Below are positions 31,822-41,017 of a stretch of DNA of 64,000 bases, piece after piece. Within the stretch, counting starts at the first letter, position 1. Every line of letters starts with the position of its first letter. The stretch comes from Actinomycetes bacterium (GTDB taxonomy: Bacteria > Actinomycetota > Acidimicrobiia > Acidimicrobiales > Acidimicrobiaceae): assembly GCA_021805205.1 (NCBI GenBank), contig JAJZFV010000032.1, positions 1 to 64,000 of the forward strand, in the 5' to 3' direction. The translations under genes were made by a program, and so were the position numbers. The notes under the pieces are model-generated. The model had not been told where the DNA came from and made no database searches. It saw nothing but the letters and a program-made list of their open reading frames with translations.

Positions 31822-32604
31822 TCAATCGGTTACTTCAACCCCGTCGATAACCTTGCGGAAGCCCAGCATTCTCAAGGGGATCTTCATTGAACCTTTATCT
31901 AGGATCTGCGCCAGGATTTTATCTTTGAGCCCCTGATCTCCCTCGAGCCCTGGAAGCTCTTTTAGGTAAAGCGAATCTACGAATAATTGCGCATCGTCAC
32001 GTGATTTGGCGATGAAGTAAAAGGTGCGCCGGTCGTCCATCGATTCAGCGAGCCCCACTTTGGCCGTCTCGTTACGAATTGTTCGCACACCCCGGCCGTT
32101 TGGGAATGTTAGCGTTCTTTCCCCGCCGTACTTTGCGATCTGGCGGTAGATCCGTAGATCGCTGACTCCGAGAAAAGGTCCACCTCCGGGAAGGATAACA
32201 TTGAGATATCCGTCGCGTGCCATTACACGTGAGACTTCCGAGATGACTTGGTGCATCGGCTGTATCAGCATCAGTGCCATCGAGATGGTGACACTGGTAA
32301 AAGCGCTACTTCGAAGAGGTAGGGTTAGGGCATCGCCATTTATCAACCCATCTGCCCCGCGTTCTTGTGCGCGAAACAGTTCTCCGCTTGACCGATCGAT
32401 CCGTACTACATTCATCTGGTCGTGATCGTTGAAAAGTGGCGCCGAGCCGCAGCAAAGGTCGAGGTGATCACCGCGACTTGGGGTTGCTTTCTCGACCCAT
32501 TGATAGGGGTTCAACCCTTCCTTATCGTGGGAACGAATGAATATCTCTTCGGTGATGCCAGAGCGTCGGTTGTGAAAGGTATCTAGGAAGCTCTGCCAAT
32601 TCAC
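31822..32604 (-). CDS. Class I SAM-dependent methyltransferase
   Basis: A 260-residue Rossmann-fold methyltransferase. SAM-binding motif I is LDLCCGSAPLF, the acidic motif II follows as VVRIDRSSGEL, INGDALTLPLRSSAFTSVT is motif III and SEVSRVMARDGYLNVILPGG the post motif. Similar to Methyltransf_11 enzymes acting on small molecules or lipids. GTG 32604 sits behind AGGAGGA. It is 129 bases downstream of the APC permease gene on the same strand and could be the last member of the operon that begins with the oxidoreductase at 37829. Substrate unknown. Confidence 0.85.
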   Translation of the reverse strand: MNWQSFLDTFHNRRSGITEEIFIRSHDKEGLNPYQWVEKATPSRGDHLDLCCGSAPLFNDHDQMNVVRIDRSSGELFRAQERGADGLINGDALTLPLRSSAFTSVTISMALMLIQPMHQVISEVSRVMARDGYLNVILPGGGPFLGVSDLRIYRQIAKYGGERTLTFPNGRGVRTIRNETAKVGLAESMDDRRTFYFIAKSRDDAQLFVDSLYLKELPGLEGDQGLKDKILAQILDKGSMKIPLRMLGFRKVIDGVEVTD

Positions 32605-34262: not shown

Positions 34263-34964
34263 CTAGTTCATCTCGCTAGTCGTCTCTCTGCTTACTGCTG
34301 AGTCACGTTCGTTGCCACCGCAGCCTTCTCCAAAAGATTTTGGAGAAGCTTTAGCACTGAGTCGCTGAACGCCGATTGTTATTCGTTGAAGGGCTGTGAT
34401 TGCAACCATTGCAATAAATACGTCGGTGGTGATCGCAGCGTATTGAGGCAAAGCCATAACTACGACATAGAAGATGATTGTCTCGCCACCCTCAGCCAAT
34501 CCTCCAATGAATCGGATCGCCTTGGAGTTCCTCTCCGATGTGACTTGAATCAGTCGGGCTCGACGCTCGGTTATAGACGAGAGGGCTAGAAGGGCAGTGC
34601 CAGAGACGTAGTAGGTTCCAAGAAGGATGATTGTTTCGAGTCGTAGGTTGGCATAACCGATTGCGATTCCAATCAGGAGGCCGCCGTAGATAGCAAAGTC
34701 AAAGACTATGTCGAGAAAGCCGCCGAGATCCGTCGGTGTGCTCTTTCGAGCGAGAACTCCATCGATACCGTCAATGATTCGATTGGCGAGCCAGAGGCCG
34801 AGCGCCAAGATATTGTGGCGCATTGAAATTGAGACGATCGATGCAATCCCAAAGCCAAAGCCAACTGCTGTTATCGCATTTGCTGGCACCCCAATGCGAA
34901 ATAGAGGAGTCACTGCCCGCTCTAAGAGTGGGTTCAAAATTTTTCGGGCTCGATTGTCAATCAT
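34263..34964 (-). CDS. CDP-alcohol phosphatidyltransferase family protein
   Basis: A 233-residue membrane enzyme that swaps the CMP of a CDP-linked alcohol (CDP-diacylglycerol or a CDP-headgroup) for another alcohol. The catalytic motif is clear: IIDGIDGVLARKSTPTDLGGFLDIVFD, which supplies the DG, AR, G and paired Asp residues. About six hydrophobic segments surround it. The ATG at 34964 overlaps the stop region of the radical SAM gene by 8 bases with AGGTG before it, so the two are translationally coupled; the frame extends to 35006 but that start is less likely. Which phospholipid it makes cannot be told; coupling to a radical SAM enzyme is unusual for housekeeping lipid synthesis. Confidence 0.85.
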   Translation of the reverse strand: MIDNRARKILNPLLERAVTPLFRIGVPANAITAVGFGFGIASIVSISMRHNILALGLWLANRIIDGIDGVLARKSTPTDLGGFLDIVFDFAIYGGLLIGIAIGYANLRLETIILLGTYYVSGTALLALSSITERRARLIQVTSERNSKAIRFIGGLAEGGETIIFYVVVMALPQYAAITTDVFIAMVAITALQRITIGVQRLSAKASPKSFGEGCGGNERDSAVSRETTSEMN

Positions 34965-36423
34965 GAGTAGCACCTGACTTAGCCGCATTGGCATCTCTTC
35001 GCTCAAGGCGTCGTGGAAGAGGTAGTAGCTGGGAGAGGGCTATATTTTCATCTGGGTCTAAGACGCTATGCTGTACGCATGCCGGTACTACGCGGCCATC
35101 CTCAGGGTGGGCCATAGCGTAAAAACAGCCTCGGAGGCGCTCTTGGGTCTCTTTTATCGTTGGTTCTTCGGAGTCGATGCCCCGCTCCATTAGATCCCAG
35201 GCAACCTTTACATCTTCAGCGTTCATGAACCTATGCATGACGAAGGTCATGGGAATGAAATTTTTTGTCGCTACGGCACGAATTACAGTCCAAGTTCCCC
35301 CCGACCTATGGATCTGACGACCTAGCCATGCGACGGCCTCTTTGACGGTTACGGGATGGGTTATTGCAACTCGAAGTAGTCGCGGCAGAAGATCCCAGAT
35401 CTTGGAGTTGTAGTTGACCCCTCCGAGGTACTTGTAGAAGAGATCCCTGGCAAAGATATCTCTTGGGTCTTTTGAAGAGAGCACCGGCAGCCACTTGTCG
35501 TAGATGTAGAAGCCAAATGCAGTTCTGTTGCACCTTTCATCGCCAGTCTGGAGGATCTTGTAGTCGAGGTTAGCTCCTGCACCCTTCTCCATCAATGCCC
35601 AGATGTTGTCGGGATCGAGGCTGGAGTAATCTTCCTTCCATCTTTTGTCGTTTCCAACGAATGCGGCTGGCTGAAATGAGAACATGTTGTAGCCAGCCTT
35701 GATATTGTTCGCTAGCAGCTCCGGAATTCGATCTACATTCTTGGGAGTGACGGTCATGTTGTGGGCCAAGTAGTAGCGAATACCGTGTTCTTTTCGAAGT
35801 CGCTTGAACTTGTCGGCAAACTCGGCTCGGTAGGGATCCAGTGACCTTTCATCCTTTGGAACAACGATTCCCTTGCGCCCTCTCATGGTGGTGTCAAAGT
35901 GGCCAGCAAATGAAATCCGCTTCAGGCGTACCTTGCCTGAAGCATCGAGTACCAACTTCTCTAAGTAGTCGTAGTCGAAGTCGCCGTGGGTAAAGCTCAT
36001 TGGCTCGCGGCCGTAGGATCGCATTATCTGTAGGGCTTTAGCGTGGTCATCTGGCTCTAAAAGGGAGACTTCGCCTCCGATGAGTTGGATATGGGCCTTG
36101 GGTCCACGATTTTTACGAAGAAACGAGAGCTGCCTTTCAATCTCGGTCGTTGTGTGTTGCCCGTCTACCCGAACGAAGTTTGCGTCCTTGGAGTGGTAGC
36201 ACGGGGTGCAGGCAAAGTTGCATCTTGGAAAGACGCCGTGGGTACCTTCGCACCCTACGGCGTGGCGCCCCAGTACCTGGGAGTCTGTTTTGAGGTGCTC
36301 GGGAAGGCTCTCCCATCTCTGGTCCATGTATTGGCGGACTTCGGGGTCTACCGGTTGAGTTAGCTGGTCGAGCTTACCCACTAGTTTCTTTGCTAATCCA
36401 TTAGCTCTGGCTGATATCTTCAT
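34957..36423 (-). CDS. Radical SAM protein of unknown function, coupled to lipid enzyme
   Basis: A 488-residue radical SAM enzyme. The 4Fe-4S cluster motif is C68-x3-C72-x2-C75 in RCNFACTPCYHSKD, preceded by a Cys at 58; AHIQLIGGEVSLLEPDD is the GGE-type SAM-binding strand. The remaining ~250 residues, including RCNRTAFGFYIYDKWLPVL and a late RGCFYAMAHPEDGRVVPACVQH with more cysteines, match no family whose reaction I know; the late cysteines could bind an auxiliary cluster. ATG 36423 is chosen since it follows the oxidoreductase stop by 26 bases with GGGGAG before it; the frame is open back to 36477. It lies between a disulfide oxidoreductase and a CDP-alcohol transferase, so modification of a membrane lipid is a reasonable guess. 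Confidence 0.82.
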   Translation of the reverse strand: MKISARANGLAKKLVGKLDQLTQPVDPEVRQYMDQRWESLPEHLKTDSQVLGRHAVGCEGTHGVFPRCNFACTPCYHSKDANFVRVDGQHTTTEIERQLSFLRKNRGPKAHIQLIGGEVSLLEPDDHAKALQIMRSYGREPMSFTHGDFDYDYLEKLVLDASGKVRLKRISFAGHFDTTMRGRKGIVVPKDERSLDPYRAEFADKFKRLRKEHGIRYYLAHNMTVTPKNVDRIPELLANNIKAGYNMFSFQPAAFVGNDKRWKEDYSSLDPDNIWALMEKGAGANLDYKILQTGDERCNRTAFGFYIYDKWLPVLSSKDPRDIFARDLFYKYLGGVNYNSKIWDLLPRLLRVAITHPVTVKEAVAWLGRQIHRSGGTWTVIRAVATKNFIPMTFVMHRFMNAEDVKVAWDLMERGIDSEEPTIKETQERLRGCFYAMAHPEDGRVVPACVQHSVLDPDENIALSQLLPLPRRLERRDANAAKSGATHD

Positions 36424-36449
36424 CTTCTCCCCTTGCACTATCTTTCTGA

Positions 36450-37829
36450 CTAAAACTTCGTTTGAAAAGGTCTCCACCCCTCACCGTCGACCTTTATGAA
36501 AAAGCGAGAGATTGCGCTCCTAAGGGGGGTAGAGAAGGTGGGGTAGGCAAAGACGGTAAAGACCGCCCTCGCAAGTGGAGTCTTTAGCGCTATCAGCATT
36601 GAGATCTGATTAATTACTTCACCGGCTCGCGGCGATACAACAGTTGCACCTACGATTCTCCCTCCCAAGAGGAAGCCGGTAAATCGCCTTGGCGCTGCGA
36701 TCAATTTGATATATCCATCGGTGGACTTGGCAACGATATCACGATCCGACTTAGTTAGATCGAACTCCACGACTCGTAATTTTTCAGGGTTTGATACCGA
36801 TTCACCATTCTCGATAATCCCGATAGAGGCGACCTCGGGTTCGAGGTAGGTAACGTGAGGGATCTTTGCCGGATTGAAGTGTCGCTTTACGAGTGGAACG
36901 AAGAGGTTTTGAACCGCGATCCTTCCTTGCTCGTCTGCGGCGTGGGTAAATGGAGACAGGCCATTTACGTCTCCAATCGCGGCTATGCGTTTGTTGGAGG
37001 TAACCAACCGATCGTCGACTTGGATCGATCCCTTGGGGTTGATGGTAACGCCAGCAGCTTCTAAATTGAGGTTGGTGCTACGTGGCCGACGGCCAGTTGC
37101 AATGATCACCGTGTCAAAAATGACGCTCTCGCCATTTGAGAGGTGGGCGACGGAACCTAGTTCAGTTTCTGCTTCGAAGTTAGTGACTTTAGCGCCGGTT
37201 TTGACCGACACCCCCGCCGCTCTCAAGTGAGAGCTAGCAATCTCCGATGCCCGCTCCTCTTCCACGGGAAGAAGGCGCGATGCAAATTCAACTATTGTCA
37301 CGTTGGAGCCGAAACCGCGAAGTGCGGTCGCCAATTCGCATCCGATAGCTCCTCCTCCGATTATCAAGGTTCGCTTAGGTACGACTTCAAGATCAAAGAC
37401 TGTCTCATTTGTTAGATACGCTATCGAATCTAAGCCTTCGATGGGAAGTACCTTTGGGTAAGCCCCAGTTGCGATTACGAAACGTTTGGCGCCGTAGATC
37501 TTGGCGCCAACGGTAATTCTTGTGCCATCTATAAATTTTGCACGATCTCGGAGTACATCGATTCCTTCGCGGACTAGCACCTCTTCATCTTCGTTGGCGG
37601 ATATTCCAGCTATTGCAGCCCGCATGTGTTTGATGGCGTCGGAGAAACTGTCACCCCGTTTGGCACCCTCTAACAGAGCCTTTGATGGAACGCAGCCGAA
37701 AAAGGTACAGTCGCCCCCCAATGGACCCTCTGAGACTAAAAGTACCCTTCTTTTTCCTCTTATACCGGCCCGAGCAGCACTAAGGCCAGCCGCTCCACCC
37801 CCAACTACGATTAAGTCGTACTCTGTCAT
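36450..37829 (-). CDS. FAD-dependent pyridine nucleotide-disulfide oxidoreductase (mercuric reductase-like)
   Basis: A 459-residue class I flavoprotein disulfide reductase. The FAD motif VGGGAAGLSAARAG begins the protein, the redox pair is C41/C46 in GGDCTFFGCVPSK, NADPH binding is at IGGGAIGCELA, and IAAIGDVNG is the second FAD motif. The C-terminal dimerisation domain is present, but the usual HPTxxE that supplies the catalytic His-Glu pair reads YPTFST, so the normal acid/base couple is missing. This places it with mercuric-reductase-like proteins lacking standard lipoamide or glutathione activity. It heads a tight minus-strand series followed by radical SAM and CDP-alcohol transferase genes and may deliver electrons to the radical SAM enzyme. 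No MerR-type mercury genes are near. Confidence 0.87.
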   Translation of the reverse strand: MTEYDLIVVGGGAAGLSAARAGIRGKRRVLLVSEGPLGGDCTFFGCVPSKALLEGAKRGDSFSDAIKHMRAAIAGISANEDEEVLVREGIDVLRDRAKFIDGTRITVGAKIYGAKRFVIATGAYPKVLPIEGLDSIAYLTNETVFDLEVVPKRTLIIGGGAIGCELATALRGFGSNVTIVEFASRLLPVEEERASEIASSHLRAAGVSVKTGAKVTNFEAETELGSVAHLSNGESVIFDTVIIATGRRPRSTNLNLEAAGVTINPKGSIQVDDRLVTSNKRIAAIGDVNGLSPFTHAADEQGRIAVQNLFVPLVKRHFNPAKIPHVTYLEPEVASIGIIENGESVSNPEKLRVVEFDLTKSDRDIVAKSTDGYIKLIAAPRRFTGFLLGGRIVGATVVSPRAGEVINQISMLIALKTPLARAVFTVFAYPTFSTPLRSAISRFFIKVDGEGWRPFQTKF

Positions 37830-38265: not shown

Positions 38266-39453
38266 ATGTCTTTTGACGATGCAAAGCTAAATCGAATAAA
38301 GAGCCATTTAGATAGTTATGTCACCGATGAGAAGATCTCCGGCTACGACATTGAGTTGACGTCGCCGACGGGATCGATCTATCGGGCAATGAATGGCTAC
38401 TCACGACGTGAATCACAGCAAGATACCGATGAGAATACGATCTATCGGATCTACTCAATGACCAAGCCGATCACATCGATTGCGGCGATGATCCTCTACG
38501 AGCGTGGTTACTTTGATTTGAACGATCCAATCGATGCTTTCATACCGAGCTTCGGATCACCAACGGTATATGTTTCGGGTGCGGCTACCGCTCCAGCTGT
38601 AAGGCCCGCAACTTCCAAGATAAAGGTGTGGCATCTTTTGACGCACACGTCTGGACTAACATATGGTTTTCTTCACGCCCATCCCACCGATGAGATCTAT
38701 AGAATCAACGGCTTTGATCTATCGTGGCCCGAGGACAAAGGCCCATCTGAGTTGATTGACTCCGTTGCTGCTTTGCCACTTGTTGCAGATCCCGGTACCA
38801 TCTGGAACTATTCGATGTCTACCGATGTTTTGGGTCGTTTGATCGAGGTCGCAACGGGTAAGAAGCTGGGTGAATTCTTCCAGGAGGAGATCTTTGAACC
38901 CCTTGGAATGACTAGTTCATCCTTCGAAGTTGATCCAGCTAAGCGCAGTGATCTCTCGCAACTGTACTTCTCAATTGGCGGGGGTAAGATCGTGCCAGTT
39001 GGAGATCTGGAAGGTGGATCCAGGAATGGCTTTCACTCTGGCGGTGGTGGCCTCTATTCGACTACCGATGACTACGTTAAGTTCTCCCGCTTTTTACTTA
39101 ACCGGGGAAAGGTTGGAAGCGAGAGAATCTTGTCTCCAAGAACTTTCGATACCATGGTAACCAGCCACCTTCCCAAAGGTCACGACCTTAGCACCTTTGG
39201 TCGACCGATCTTTGCCGAATCTGATTTCGAAGGGGTAGGCTTCGGCCTTGGTTTCTCGGTCGTTGAAGACCCAACCGCTGGAAAGACATTGGCGTCAACA
39301 GGTACCTTTGGGTGGGGTGGGATGGCATCAACTGCTCTCTCGGTCGATCCGGTAGAGGAGTTCGCAATGGTCTTTATGACCCAAGTGGTACCCTCCTCGA
39401 CCTATCCAGTGCGCAAGGAACTTACGAGGCTCATCTATACCTCGATGATTTAG
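38266..39453 (+). CDS. Serine hydrolase of the class C beta-lactamase/esterase family
   Basis: A 395-residue protein with the penicillin-binding fold. The SxxK motif is SMTK (64-67) in IYRIYSMTKPIT, the YxN position is NYSMSTDVLG (YSM in place of YSN, as in EstB-type esterases) and the third motif region is FGWGGMAST. No signal peptide is present, so it is probably a cytoplasmic esterase, amidase or transesterase rather than a beta-lactamase. ATG 38266 is supported by AAGGGG five bases before. It is convergent with the GH1 gene and separated from it by a strong terminator. Confidence 0.87.
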   Translation: MSFDDAKLNRIKSHLDSYVTDEKISGYDIELTSPTGSIYRAMNGYSRRESQQDTDENTIYRIYSMTKPITSIAAMILYERGYFDLNDPIDAFIPSFGSPTVYVSGAATAPAVRPATSKIKVWHLLTHTSGLTYGFLHAHPTDEIYRINGFDLSWPEDKGPSELIDSVAALPLVADPGTIWNYSMSTDVLGRLIEVATGKKLGEFFQEEIFEPLGMTSSSFEVDPAKRSDLSQLYFSIGGGKIVPVGDLEGGSRNGFHSGGGGLYSTTDDYVKFSRFLLNRGKVGSERILSPRTFDTMVTSHLPKGHDLSTFGRPIFAESDFEGVGFGLGFSVVEDPTAGKTLASTGTFGWGGMASTALSVDPVEEFAMVFMTQVVPSSTYPVRKELTRLIYTSMI

Positions 39454-39574: not shown

Positions 39575-40981
39575 TCATCTTGCCTTGGAGGCTGCGATTA
39601 TCTCTTTGTAACGGTGAAAGCTCTTCTTTGGAATCCGTCGCTGAGTCTCGTAGTCAACCCAAACTATTCCAAATCGCCTCGAATAGCCATAGGCCCACTC
39701 GAAGTTGTCGAGGAGGCTCCAGACGAAGTATCCCGCTACATCTACTCCCTTGTCGATAGCGTTAGAAAGGGCAGTAATGTGGGACTCCAAGTACTCCACT
39801 CGGTCGTCGTCTAAGACTTCTCCACTTGGGTTGACGTAATCGTGAGAGGCGCAACCATTCTCGGTGATCATGATAGGTAGCTCAGAATATTCATCGTGAA
39901 TACGAACCAGCAACTCGGTTAGTGCACCAGCTTCTATCTCCCAATCCATTGCAGTTCGCTTGACTCCCATTCGGTGAACTCCGGCAGAGTCAAAGTCGGC
40001 ATCGATAAGGTTTGGTTGACGCGAGGTATCGACATAAAGGCCATTTGCCCTCGCCTTGTCGATATTTTGACGGGAGGTCACGATAGAAGGAAAATAGAAG
40101 TTGACTCCCAGAAAGTCGATCTCTTGTCCGATTATGTCAAGGTCGTCGGAGGTAGCTTCTTCGATTGTGCCTCCGTAGTGGGAGACTAGGTCCGAGGGGT
40201 AGCTCTTTTTGAAGATGGGATCGAGGAAGATTCGGTTCAAATTTCCATCGACCATTCGTGCAACGTCGACGTCAGCTTGGTCTTGACTCGCCGGTCTGAC
40301 AACCGAGAGGTTTAAGGTAATACCGATCTGAGCATCAGCTACGGTTCGCATCTTTTGTAGTGCCAAGCCATGGCCAAGTAGGAGATGGTGGGTGGCTGAG
40401 ACCGCTGCATTGAGATCTCTCTCACCTGGCGCATGGACCCCCACCGCATATCCTAGCCAAGCCGAACACCAGGGTTCGTTTAGAGTTATCCAATGCGAAA
40501 CCCTATCGCAAAGCGCCTCAGTAACGATTCCTGCGTAATCTGCGAAGCGGTACGAGGTATCACGTGCGGTCCACCCGCCTCTATCTTGGAGGCTCTGCGG
40601 TAGATCCCAGTGGTAGATGGTCGGAACCGGGGTAATGTTACGTTCAAGGAGTCCATCTACCAAGCGACTGTAAAAGTCGATCCCCTCTTGGTTTGGTTGC
40701 CCGGATCCATCTGGTTGGATTCTTGGCCAAGCTATTGAAAAGCGATAGGTCGATACCCCTAGTTCTGCTAAGAGGTCTAAGTCCTGAACGTAGCGATGGT
40801 AGTGATCGCATGCCATTTCACCGGTGTCACCGTTGGTTACTTTGCCTGGTGATTTAGAGAAGGTATCCCAAATCGATACGCCGCGACCTCCTTCTGTCAC
40901 CGCCCCCTCAATCTGGTACGACGCCGTAGCTGTACCCCATAAAAAGTCCCGCCCGAAGTTACCAAGCTCGAGATCTGCCAT
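39575..40981 (-). CDS. Beta-glucosidase, glycoside hydrolase family 1
   Basis: A 468-residue cytoplasmic retaining glycosidase that should split cellobiose and other beta-glucosides. The N-terminal FLWGTATASYQIEGAVTEGGRG is the GH1 signature; the acid/base Glu is in TLNEPWCSAW (about residue 169) and the nucleophile Glu in IMITENGCA (about 374). YHWDLPQSLQDRGGW and SLLDNFEWAYGYSRRFG are further family blocks. ATG 40981 is chosen for GGGG before it; ATG 40996 is an alternative. It is divergent from the LacI repressor and ABC transporter genes and its -35 overlaps a LacI-type operator, so uptake and hydrolysis are probably induced together. Confidence 0.95.
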   Translation of the reverse strand: MADLELGNFGRDFLWGTATASYQIEGAVTEGGRGVSIWDTFSKSPGKVTNGDTGEMACDHYHRYVQDLDLLAELGVSTYRFSIAWPRIQPDGSGQPNQEGIDFYSRLVDGLLERNITPVPTIYHWDLPQSLQDRGGWTARDTSYRFADYAGIVTEALCDRVSHWITLNEPWCSAWLGYAVGVHAPGERDLNAAVSATHHLLLGHGLALQKMRTVADAQIGITLNLSVVRPASQDQADVDVARMVDGNLNRIFLDPIFKKSYPSDLVSHYGGTIEEATSDDLDIIGQEIDFLGVNFYFPSIVTSRQNIDKARANGLYVDTSRQPNLIDADFDSAGVHRMGVKRTAMDWEIEAGALTELLVRIHDEYSELPIMITENGCASHDYVNPSGEVLDDDRVEYLESHITALSNAIDKGVDVAGYFVWSLLDNFEWAYGYSRRFGIVWVDYETQRRIPKKSFHRYKEIIAASKAR

Positions 40982-41017
40982 ATTGCCCCAATCCATCTCA
41001 GAGAAGTATTTACATAT

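Follow-up and report, generated by a model that had tools for sequence, protein, structure and literature searches.

Radical S-adenosylmethionine (SAM) enzymes that act on lipids and the uncharacterised ynj genes of Escherichia coli are among the closest described counterparts of a three-gene unit found in a 64,000-nucleotide stretch of contig JAJZFV010000032.1 (assembly GCA_021805205.1; Acidimicrobiaceae, Actinomycetota), the whole of which is referred to here as the window. The unit consists of packed open reading frames (ORFs), all on the minus strand, for a flavin adenine dinucleotide (FAD) oxidoreductase, a radical SAM protein (RSAM) and a cytidine diphosphate (CDP)-alcohol phosphotransferase (CDPT). 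Among the related enzymes, Tes (GDGT-MAS) carries extra metal-binding cysteine sets beyond its radical SAM cluster, and in the HpnH/HpnG ribosylhopane pathway a radical SAM enzyme acts on a lipid and is followed by a nucleoside phosphorylase. Another radical SAM (seleno)protein, TrsS, is partnered by DVU_1556 proteins. Tes is reported to couple archaeal lipid chains (PMC8941075), and 456 Tes homologues with unconfirmed activity were retrieved from bacteria at E < 1e-50 (PMC11868695); TrsS appears in the consulted part of PMC13188914 as a table entry without a function. A review describes a radical SAM enzyme that adenosylates arsenic in oxo-arsenosugar biosynthesis (PMC12159101). In E. coli, ydjX to ynjE are described as a weakly expressed eight-gene operon (PMC8921622), the putative transporter ynjABCD as induced, perhaps indirectly, by BaeR overexpression (PMC2731931), and YdjX and YdjZ are treated as DedA proteins; the consulted parts of this literature give no substrate or product for ydjX-ynjE or ynjF. 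No description of the present gene set was found in the literature searched, where YnjF and CDP-alcohol were never mentioned together.

The window locus resembles each of these systems in part. The predicted fold of RSAM is like that of Tes along the whole protein, but RSAM scores 17.2 bits against the Tes model NF045702 (cut-off 450), conserves four cysteines in addition to those of its radical SAM motif, and is a bacterial accessory gene with different neighbours; with such a score it would hardly reach the threshold of E < 1e-50 applied to Tes homologues. TrsS (NF045646) is the NCBIfam family matched by 47 of the 50 RSAM members scanned, a relative on a Roseomonas plasmid matches it over most of its length with 100 bits, and a methyltransferase weakly similar to the DVU_1556 model lies nearby, but the window protein reaches only 22 bits against a cut-off of 490. 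The HpnH/HpnG pathway resembles a phosphorylase-containing variant of the RSAM cassette, whose phosphorylase representative weakly matches HpnG (30.7 bits); it differs in that no phosphorylase is seen beside the window unit, and HpnH is absent from the NCBIfam matches of the 50 members. Related RSAM/FAD cores also occur with arsenosugar-type clusters (ArsS, TIGR04282, TIGR04283, phosphorylase), but RSAM is not ArsS and none of these cluster genes was found beside the window unit. The E. coli ynj genes are linked to the unit by the full-length YnjF homology of CDPT and by ydj/ynj homologues in RSAM loci, but no RSAM or FAD homologue is present among the nine E. coli proteins compared, and the YnjB family (NF008633) has no match at E 1e-20 in the window genome, which is 89% complete.

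A compact unit with recurring, modular partners

We see roughly an even chance that the unit forms the heart of a pathway that is accessory and has been exchanged repeatedly, and whose product would most likely be a modified membrane phospholipid. The countable points of an initial annotation of this DNA were accurate: the FAD oxidoreductase (36,450 to 37,829; 459 residues) is separated by 26 bases from the 488-residue RSAM (34,957 to 36,423), and the ATG of CDPT (34,263 to 34,964; 233 residues) overlaps the end of RSAM by 8 bases. The RSAM start, read from the sequence, is an ATG with GGGAGAAG just upstream; in the ORF list, the longest RSAM frame begins at a GTG further upstream (506 residues, overlapping the FAD gene) and the longest CDPT frame at a TTG (247 residues). 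Because a scan for promoters and terminators gave counts at the level of shuffled sequence, that is, of chance, it is the gene packing that argues for transcription as a single operon.

The recurrence of partner genes near RSAM homologues exceeds chance. We analysed 80 RSAM loci, the best 80 of 82 confirmed in one genome-contig scan whose search patterns reach close relatives, and sought partner genes by tblastn with a fixed search space within the fetched flanks. Of these loci, 77 carry actinobacterial titles and three come from one Acidobacteriota metagenome-assembled genome; Microbacterium and Streptomyces are over-represented, and many flanks are cut by contig ends. FAD homologues were detected in the flanks of 49 loci, YnjF-type CDPTs in 41, VTT proteins in 31 and YnjB-type binding proteins in 29, together with a second radical SAM protein in 16, TIGR04282/TIGR04283-type glycosyltransferases (one or both, by similarity) in 15 and a protein like 5'-methylthioadenosine (MTA) phosphorylase in nine. 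At least one of seven partner groups is present at 65 of the 80 loci, and the check named in the initial annotation, whether homologues are scattered without the other two genes, therefore did not go against the unit. In comparison, none of 15 queries found a match in 20 control stretches of 13.4 kb, taken at even steps from three genomes of the order that are each a single contig; since these genomes were hand-chosen and all lack RSAM, the control gives the background level without being matched. The expectation that the three genes stay together is thus borne out above background, but in a loose form, as FAD and YnjF-type CDPT are both within reach in only 28 loci and CDPT lies directly downstream of RSAM on the same strand in only 10.

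The distribution across genomes points in the same direction. RSAM occurs in eight of 296 Actinomycetota genomes and in seven of the 42 genomes of the window's family, and this patchiness marks it as an accessory trait; distant relatives occur in Proteobacteria. YnjF-type CDPTs of at least 139 bits are found in 18 of the 296 genomes, including five of the eight with RSAM (Fisher p 2.3e-5, or 2.4e-4 without the window's genome). The 139-bit line was drawn at a gap in the scores with the result already in view, and the Fisher tests are uncorrected for genome kinship. At E 1e-20 the count is 23 of 296, again with five shared (p 8.8e-5, or 7.1e-4 without the window's genome). All 14 RSAM genomes examined contain some CDP-alcohol phosphotransferase match at E 1e-10, and a strong YnjF-type CDPT (at least 142 bits) is present in 10, the other four having matches of 43-58 bits only. 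In three of those four (G312, G100 and G143) TIGR04283 exceeds its cut-off, which it does in none of the 10 strong-YnjF genomes; in the remaining one (G013), YnjB neighbours RSAM on a contig of 6.9 kb. The YnjB family is found in four of the 14 RSAM genomes.

The partner set is larger than the three genes and modular, comprising either a YnjBCD importer with TVP38/VTT proteins or a phosphorylase with glycosyltransferases and a second radical SAM protein. RSAM and FAD form the most constant pair. In other lineages this core is joined instead by the second of these sets, with two glycosyltransferases; YnjBCD and TVP38/VTT are frequent companions of YnjF. Representatives of the neighbours exceeded the cut-offs for TIGR04282 (185 bits, cut-off 134), TIGR04283 (236, cut-off 182) and the YnjB subfamily (442, cut-off 203); a VTT representative was also identified, and the MTA-phosphorylase-like representative reached 152 bits (cut-off 275). 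The finishing step is either YnjF or the phosphorylase and glycosyltransferase set: among 92 loci (one of which, L132, repeats L053), 43 have YnjF only, 16 a phosphorylase or glycosyltransferase only, 30 neither and three both. On a tree of 91 RSAM sequences, built by a quick method with three short-match loci omitted and with 23 of its 88 inner branches weakly supported, the two contexts changed at least five times, leaving outgroups and the "both" and "neither" rows uncounted. For instance, genome G312, from the window's own family, contains two copies (L126 and L127) of the arrangement FAD, RSAM, phosphorylase, two glycosyltransferases and second radical SAM; on the tree, the two copies have closely related sister RSAM genes, and a major facilitator superfamily transporter gene intervenes in the L126 copy.

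Second radical SAM genes similar to one fusion protein recur near RSAM at 16 of the 80 loci; this fusion joins a metallophosphoesterase to an Rv1681-like radical SAM domain (L024, 9643-11334; 274 bits, cut-off 380). In gene groupings with approximate gene starts, genes for extracytoplasmic function (ECF) sigma factors lie near RSAM in 21 loci and DUF427 genes in 17.

Signatures of the three proteins

Pfam confirms the families of the FAD, RSAM and CDPT genes and of the permease and methyltransferase genes downstream. RSAM exceeds the cut-off for the Pfam Radical_SAM model only (33.7 bits, curated cut-off 29.5). Its CX3CX2C motif for the radical SAM [4Fe-4S] cluster (36,199 to 36,222, minus strand) reads CNFACTPC, with C68, C72 and C75 kept in all 81 aligned sequences. 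Further cysteines are retained at C58 (81/81), C298 (79/80) and the late pair C433 (77/78) and C449 (76/77), the pair being encoded at 35,077 to 35,127 on the same strand, so both the motif and the late cysteines of the initial annotation are present and conserved. C58, C298, C433 and C449 represent a possible auxiliary iron-sulfur site. Membership of RSAM in a family with a known non-lipid reaction had been named as a finding that would speak against a lipid product; no cut-off of such a family was reached in Pfam or NCBIfam, and no NCBIfam cut-off at all was reached by the 50 members scanned.

After realignment, the closest solved structure to the RSAM model is Tes (7TOL, 7TOM), by a wide margin. 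By sequence, RSAM alone and as a profile gave only chance-level matches to the PDB (E 0.38 to 0.73); the best PDB sequence match of the Roseomonas relative is Tes, and two cysteines in its late stretch align with Tes cysteines (5.4 bits). A control comparison of RSAM with the genome's own MoaA gave 85.9% over 192 core columns (E 5.3e-6), and core-only similarity was therefore discarded as evidence. The comparison of RSAM with the second radical SAM protein of the Roseomonas cluster (13%, 49 columns) was rejected as a relationship.

CDPT matches the Pfam family CDP-OH_P_transf (29.1 bits, curated cut-off 22) and is homologous over its full length to E. coli YnjF (30% over 206 residues, E 9e-24). 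The superfamily motif (DG..AR, G...D...D) is intact at 34,698 to 34,772 on the minus strand: D65, G66, D68, G69, R73, G81, D85 and D89 do not vary among the 25 YnjF-type sequences aligned, and A72 is kept in 90% or more of this alignment. The predicted fold is like that of phosphatidylinositol-phosphate synthase; CDPT stays below the cut-off of the archaetidylinositol phosphate synthase model NF040950 (60.4 bits, cut-off 180), and neither CDPT nor a YnjB-type binding protein had a PDB match by sequence at the limits set.

The FAD enzyme belongs with the MerA/lipoamide-dehydrogenase-like pyridine nucleotide-disulfide oxidoreductases (Pyr_redox_2, PF07992, 217 bits, over the curated cut-off) and carries a CTFFGC motif. 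Mercuric reductase has a C-terminal vicinal cysteine pair, which is lacking in the C-terminus of this protein (...GEGWRPFQTKF). The description "mercuric-reductase-like" is apt as a similarity (TIGR02053, 296 bits) but not as membership (cut-off 454), and a role in mercury resistance was rejected. Its identity to TVP38/FAD fusions, and to FAD proteins from plasmids and from Roseomonas, is 31-34%. A C4C motif was counted in 26 of 39 FAD homologues, a figure limited by partial matches and not used.

Possible products and competing explanations

The proposal of an unusual membrane lipid, made in the initial annotation, gains partial support from the co-occurrence of the genes, from an RSAM model nearest to Tes and from a YnjF-type CDPT with an intact motif. 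The replacement of one polar-group finishing module by another suggests that RSAM delivers one common intermediate, and given a Tes-like fold and a YnjF partner, the most economical guess at the substrate is a lipid or a compound linked to one. In such a pathway, RSAM would cleave SAM, and the 5'-deoxyadenosyl radical would act on a head-group precursor or on a substrate that is hydrophobic or linked to a lipid; the FAD enzyme, with NAD(P)H, might serve as electron source or as dithiol reductase. CDPT would then move the phosphatidyl group of a CDP-diacylglycerol-type donor to an alcohol, providing the phospholipid head group or the anchor for the radical-modified product. The methyltransferase, when present, may methylate a pathway intermediate; where the YnjBCD importer and the TVP38/VTT protein occur, the former could supply a head-group precursor and the latter could shift the finished lipid between leaflets.

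Several observations weigh against a phospholipid product. None of the seven partner groups was found at 15 of the 80 loci, although a second family of FAD enzymes is present at three of them (L034, L043 and L044) and a second family of CDPTs at one (L061), and direct RSAM-CDPT adjacency is scarce. Of the 18 genomes with a strong YnjF-type CDPT, 13 lack RSAM, which indicates an RSAM-independent role for YnjF, and the association tests carry the reservations given with them. The two finishing modules occur together in three Streptomyces loci, so their exclusion is not absolute. A Tes-like fold alone is no proof of a lipid substrate. Tes emerges as nearest from the realignment only and is missing from the Foldseek top 50 by E-value, led by SkfB, anSME, DesII and viperin, and the MoaA of the window genome scores 66-68 bits in core-only Tes and TrsS matches, which are thus unspecific. 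The distance of RSAM from the Tes model, the lack of RSAM and FAD homologues among the E. coli proteins, the missing YnjB match in the window genome and the arsenosugar-named genes adjoining some relatives count in the same sense.

That the unit makes a soluble, non-lipid metabolite, with the FAD enzyme and RSAM as the pathway and CDPT as a neighbour with a separate role, would fit the 39 of 80 loci without a YnjF-type CDPT within reach and the strong YnjF-type CDPTs in genomes without RSAM; the co-occurrence of the two genes across genomes, their 8-base overlap in the window and the strong YnjF-type CDPT in 10 of 14 RSAM genomes make this highly improbable in our judgement. A further alternative is Tes-like chemistry at the level of the chains, in which RSAM would link or change acyl or isoprenoid chains and CDPT would build only the head group of an otherwise ordinary phospholipid. 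Both the structural realignment and the best PDB sequence match of the Roseomonas relative favour such chain chemistry, but RSAM is far from Tes in sequence and the exchanged partners (phosphorylase, glycosyltransferases and YnjF) come from families acting on polar groups; to our knowledge no membrane-spanning lipids have been described from the RSAM hosts Streptomyces and Microbacterium, and we regard chain chemistry as unlikely.

The unit might also handle arsenic or another metalloid, in which case RSAM or a partner radical SAM protein would bond carbon to the metalloid, and the product would be conjugated to a lipid or sugar by CDPT or the glycosyltransferases, as in arsenosugar phospholipids. 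We entertain this because some relatives keep company with ArsS and TIGR0428x proteins. On plasmid bglu_2p of Burkholderia glumae BGR1 (L116 and L123), an RSAM relative lies near an annotated arsS and near TIGR04282 and TIGR04283 genes. The cluster also has a gene annotated as MTA phosphorylase, a TVP38/FAD fusion, two genes for sigma factors, and DUF2282, DUF692 and DoxX genes that resemble a bufferin set. The Roseomonas plasmid relative is accompanied by TIGR04282, DUF547, a second radical SAM protein, a PhnD-like importer, a metallophosphoesterase, FAD, VTT and a second FAD enzyme. The importer is in keeping with metalloid chemistry, as are those neighbours of RSAM relatives whose representatives exceed the TIGR04282 and TIGR04283 cut-offs, and the reported arsenic adenosylation by a radical SAM enzyme (PMC12159101). 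Nevertheless, the name "arsenosugar" in TIGR04282/04283 reflects NCBI naming and not a functional test, the best TIGR04283 match in the window genome reaches 72 bits (cut-off 182), and the Roseomonas and B. glumae stretches have no gene annotated as an arsenic methyltransferase or as ArsR, neither of which was searched for genome-wide; a metalloid product thus appears rather doubtful. As to RSAM being ArsS itself, this was rejected, as none of the 50 members matched TIGR04167 at E 0.01 and hhalign with the B. glumae ArsS gave 1.7%. ArsS and RSAM occur in four and eight of the 296 genomes, none shared, numbers too few to mean anything. An arsM-arsS-TVP38 neighbourhood in Synechocystis was not confirmed in the consulted parts of the literature.

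Returning to the phospholipid pathway, a broader and more tentative version holds that one radical-made lipid or head group from RSAM and the flavoprotein might feed two interchangeable routes, through YnjF to a phospholipid and through the phosphorylase and glycosyltransferases to a glycolipid, and that the uncharacterised E. coli ydjX-ynjE operon with ynjF might form the half of this chemistry that covers uptake and attachment to a lipid. Homologues of YdjX/YdjZ, YnjB, YnjD, YnjF and, weakly, YnjC are found in RSAM loci. Of seven annotated YnjB/YnjF plasmid neighbourhoods, three have TVP38 and FAD genes, fused in two, and four show no FAD gene, one of these being sparsely annotated.

The MG1655 genes ydjX-ynjE and ynjF were located at L097 5402-13404. 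An E. coli IncC plasmid (L117, 1712-10457) carries a module of TVP38, FAD, YnjBCD and YnjF, in which an IS3-family transposase gene separates TVP38 from FAD, and among the matches listed, YnjB-type matches at 67% recur on Salmonella, Klebsiella, Citrobacter and Providencia plasmids. On a Qingshengfaniella plasmid (L110, 10001-20557), in one of the seven annotated neighbourhoods, YnjF and an ATP-binding cassette importer of the YnjB kind directly precede pstSCAB-phoU-phoB, which hints at phosphate limitation.

Flanking genes and biological significance

Downstream on the same strand, an APC-family amino acid permease (PF13520; 32,734 to 34,197) follows after a 65-base gap and a SAM-dependent methyltransferase (Methyltransf_11; 31,822 to 32,604) after a further 129 bases. 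The suggestion that both belong to the unit holds better for the methyltransferase, homologues of which recur in 16 of the 80 loci, Streptomyces included, and which weakly matches the DVU_1556 model (30.3 bits, cut-off 155); it is a possible member. Membership of the permease is doubtful, with homologues in seven of the 80 loci (one of which, L067, belongs to a distant relative, and another of which, L012, has the gene on the opposite strand) and in two of 12 further loci (L128 and L129). Beside the unit also lie ORFs named by eye from their translations as a beta-lactamase-fold serine hydrolase (38,266-39,453) and a glucosidase like those of glycoside hydrolase family 1 (39,575-40,996).

The RSAM family is represented at the 80 loci kept and by distant relatives in Proteobacteria, yet it remains below every NCBIfam cut-off. 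Through its link with YnjF, the family offers a way to approach ydjX-ynjE and ynjF of E. coli. Should its product be a lipid, the unit would add a radical-modified membrane lipid to those of soil actinobacteria; an organoarsenic product would make it a further route to arsenolipids.

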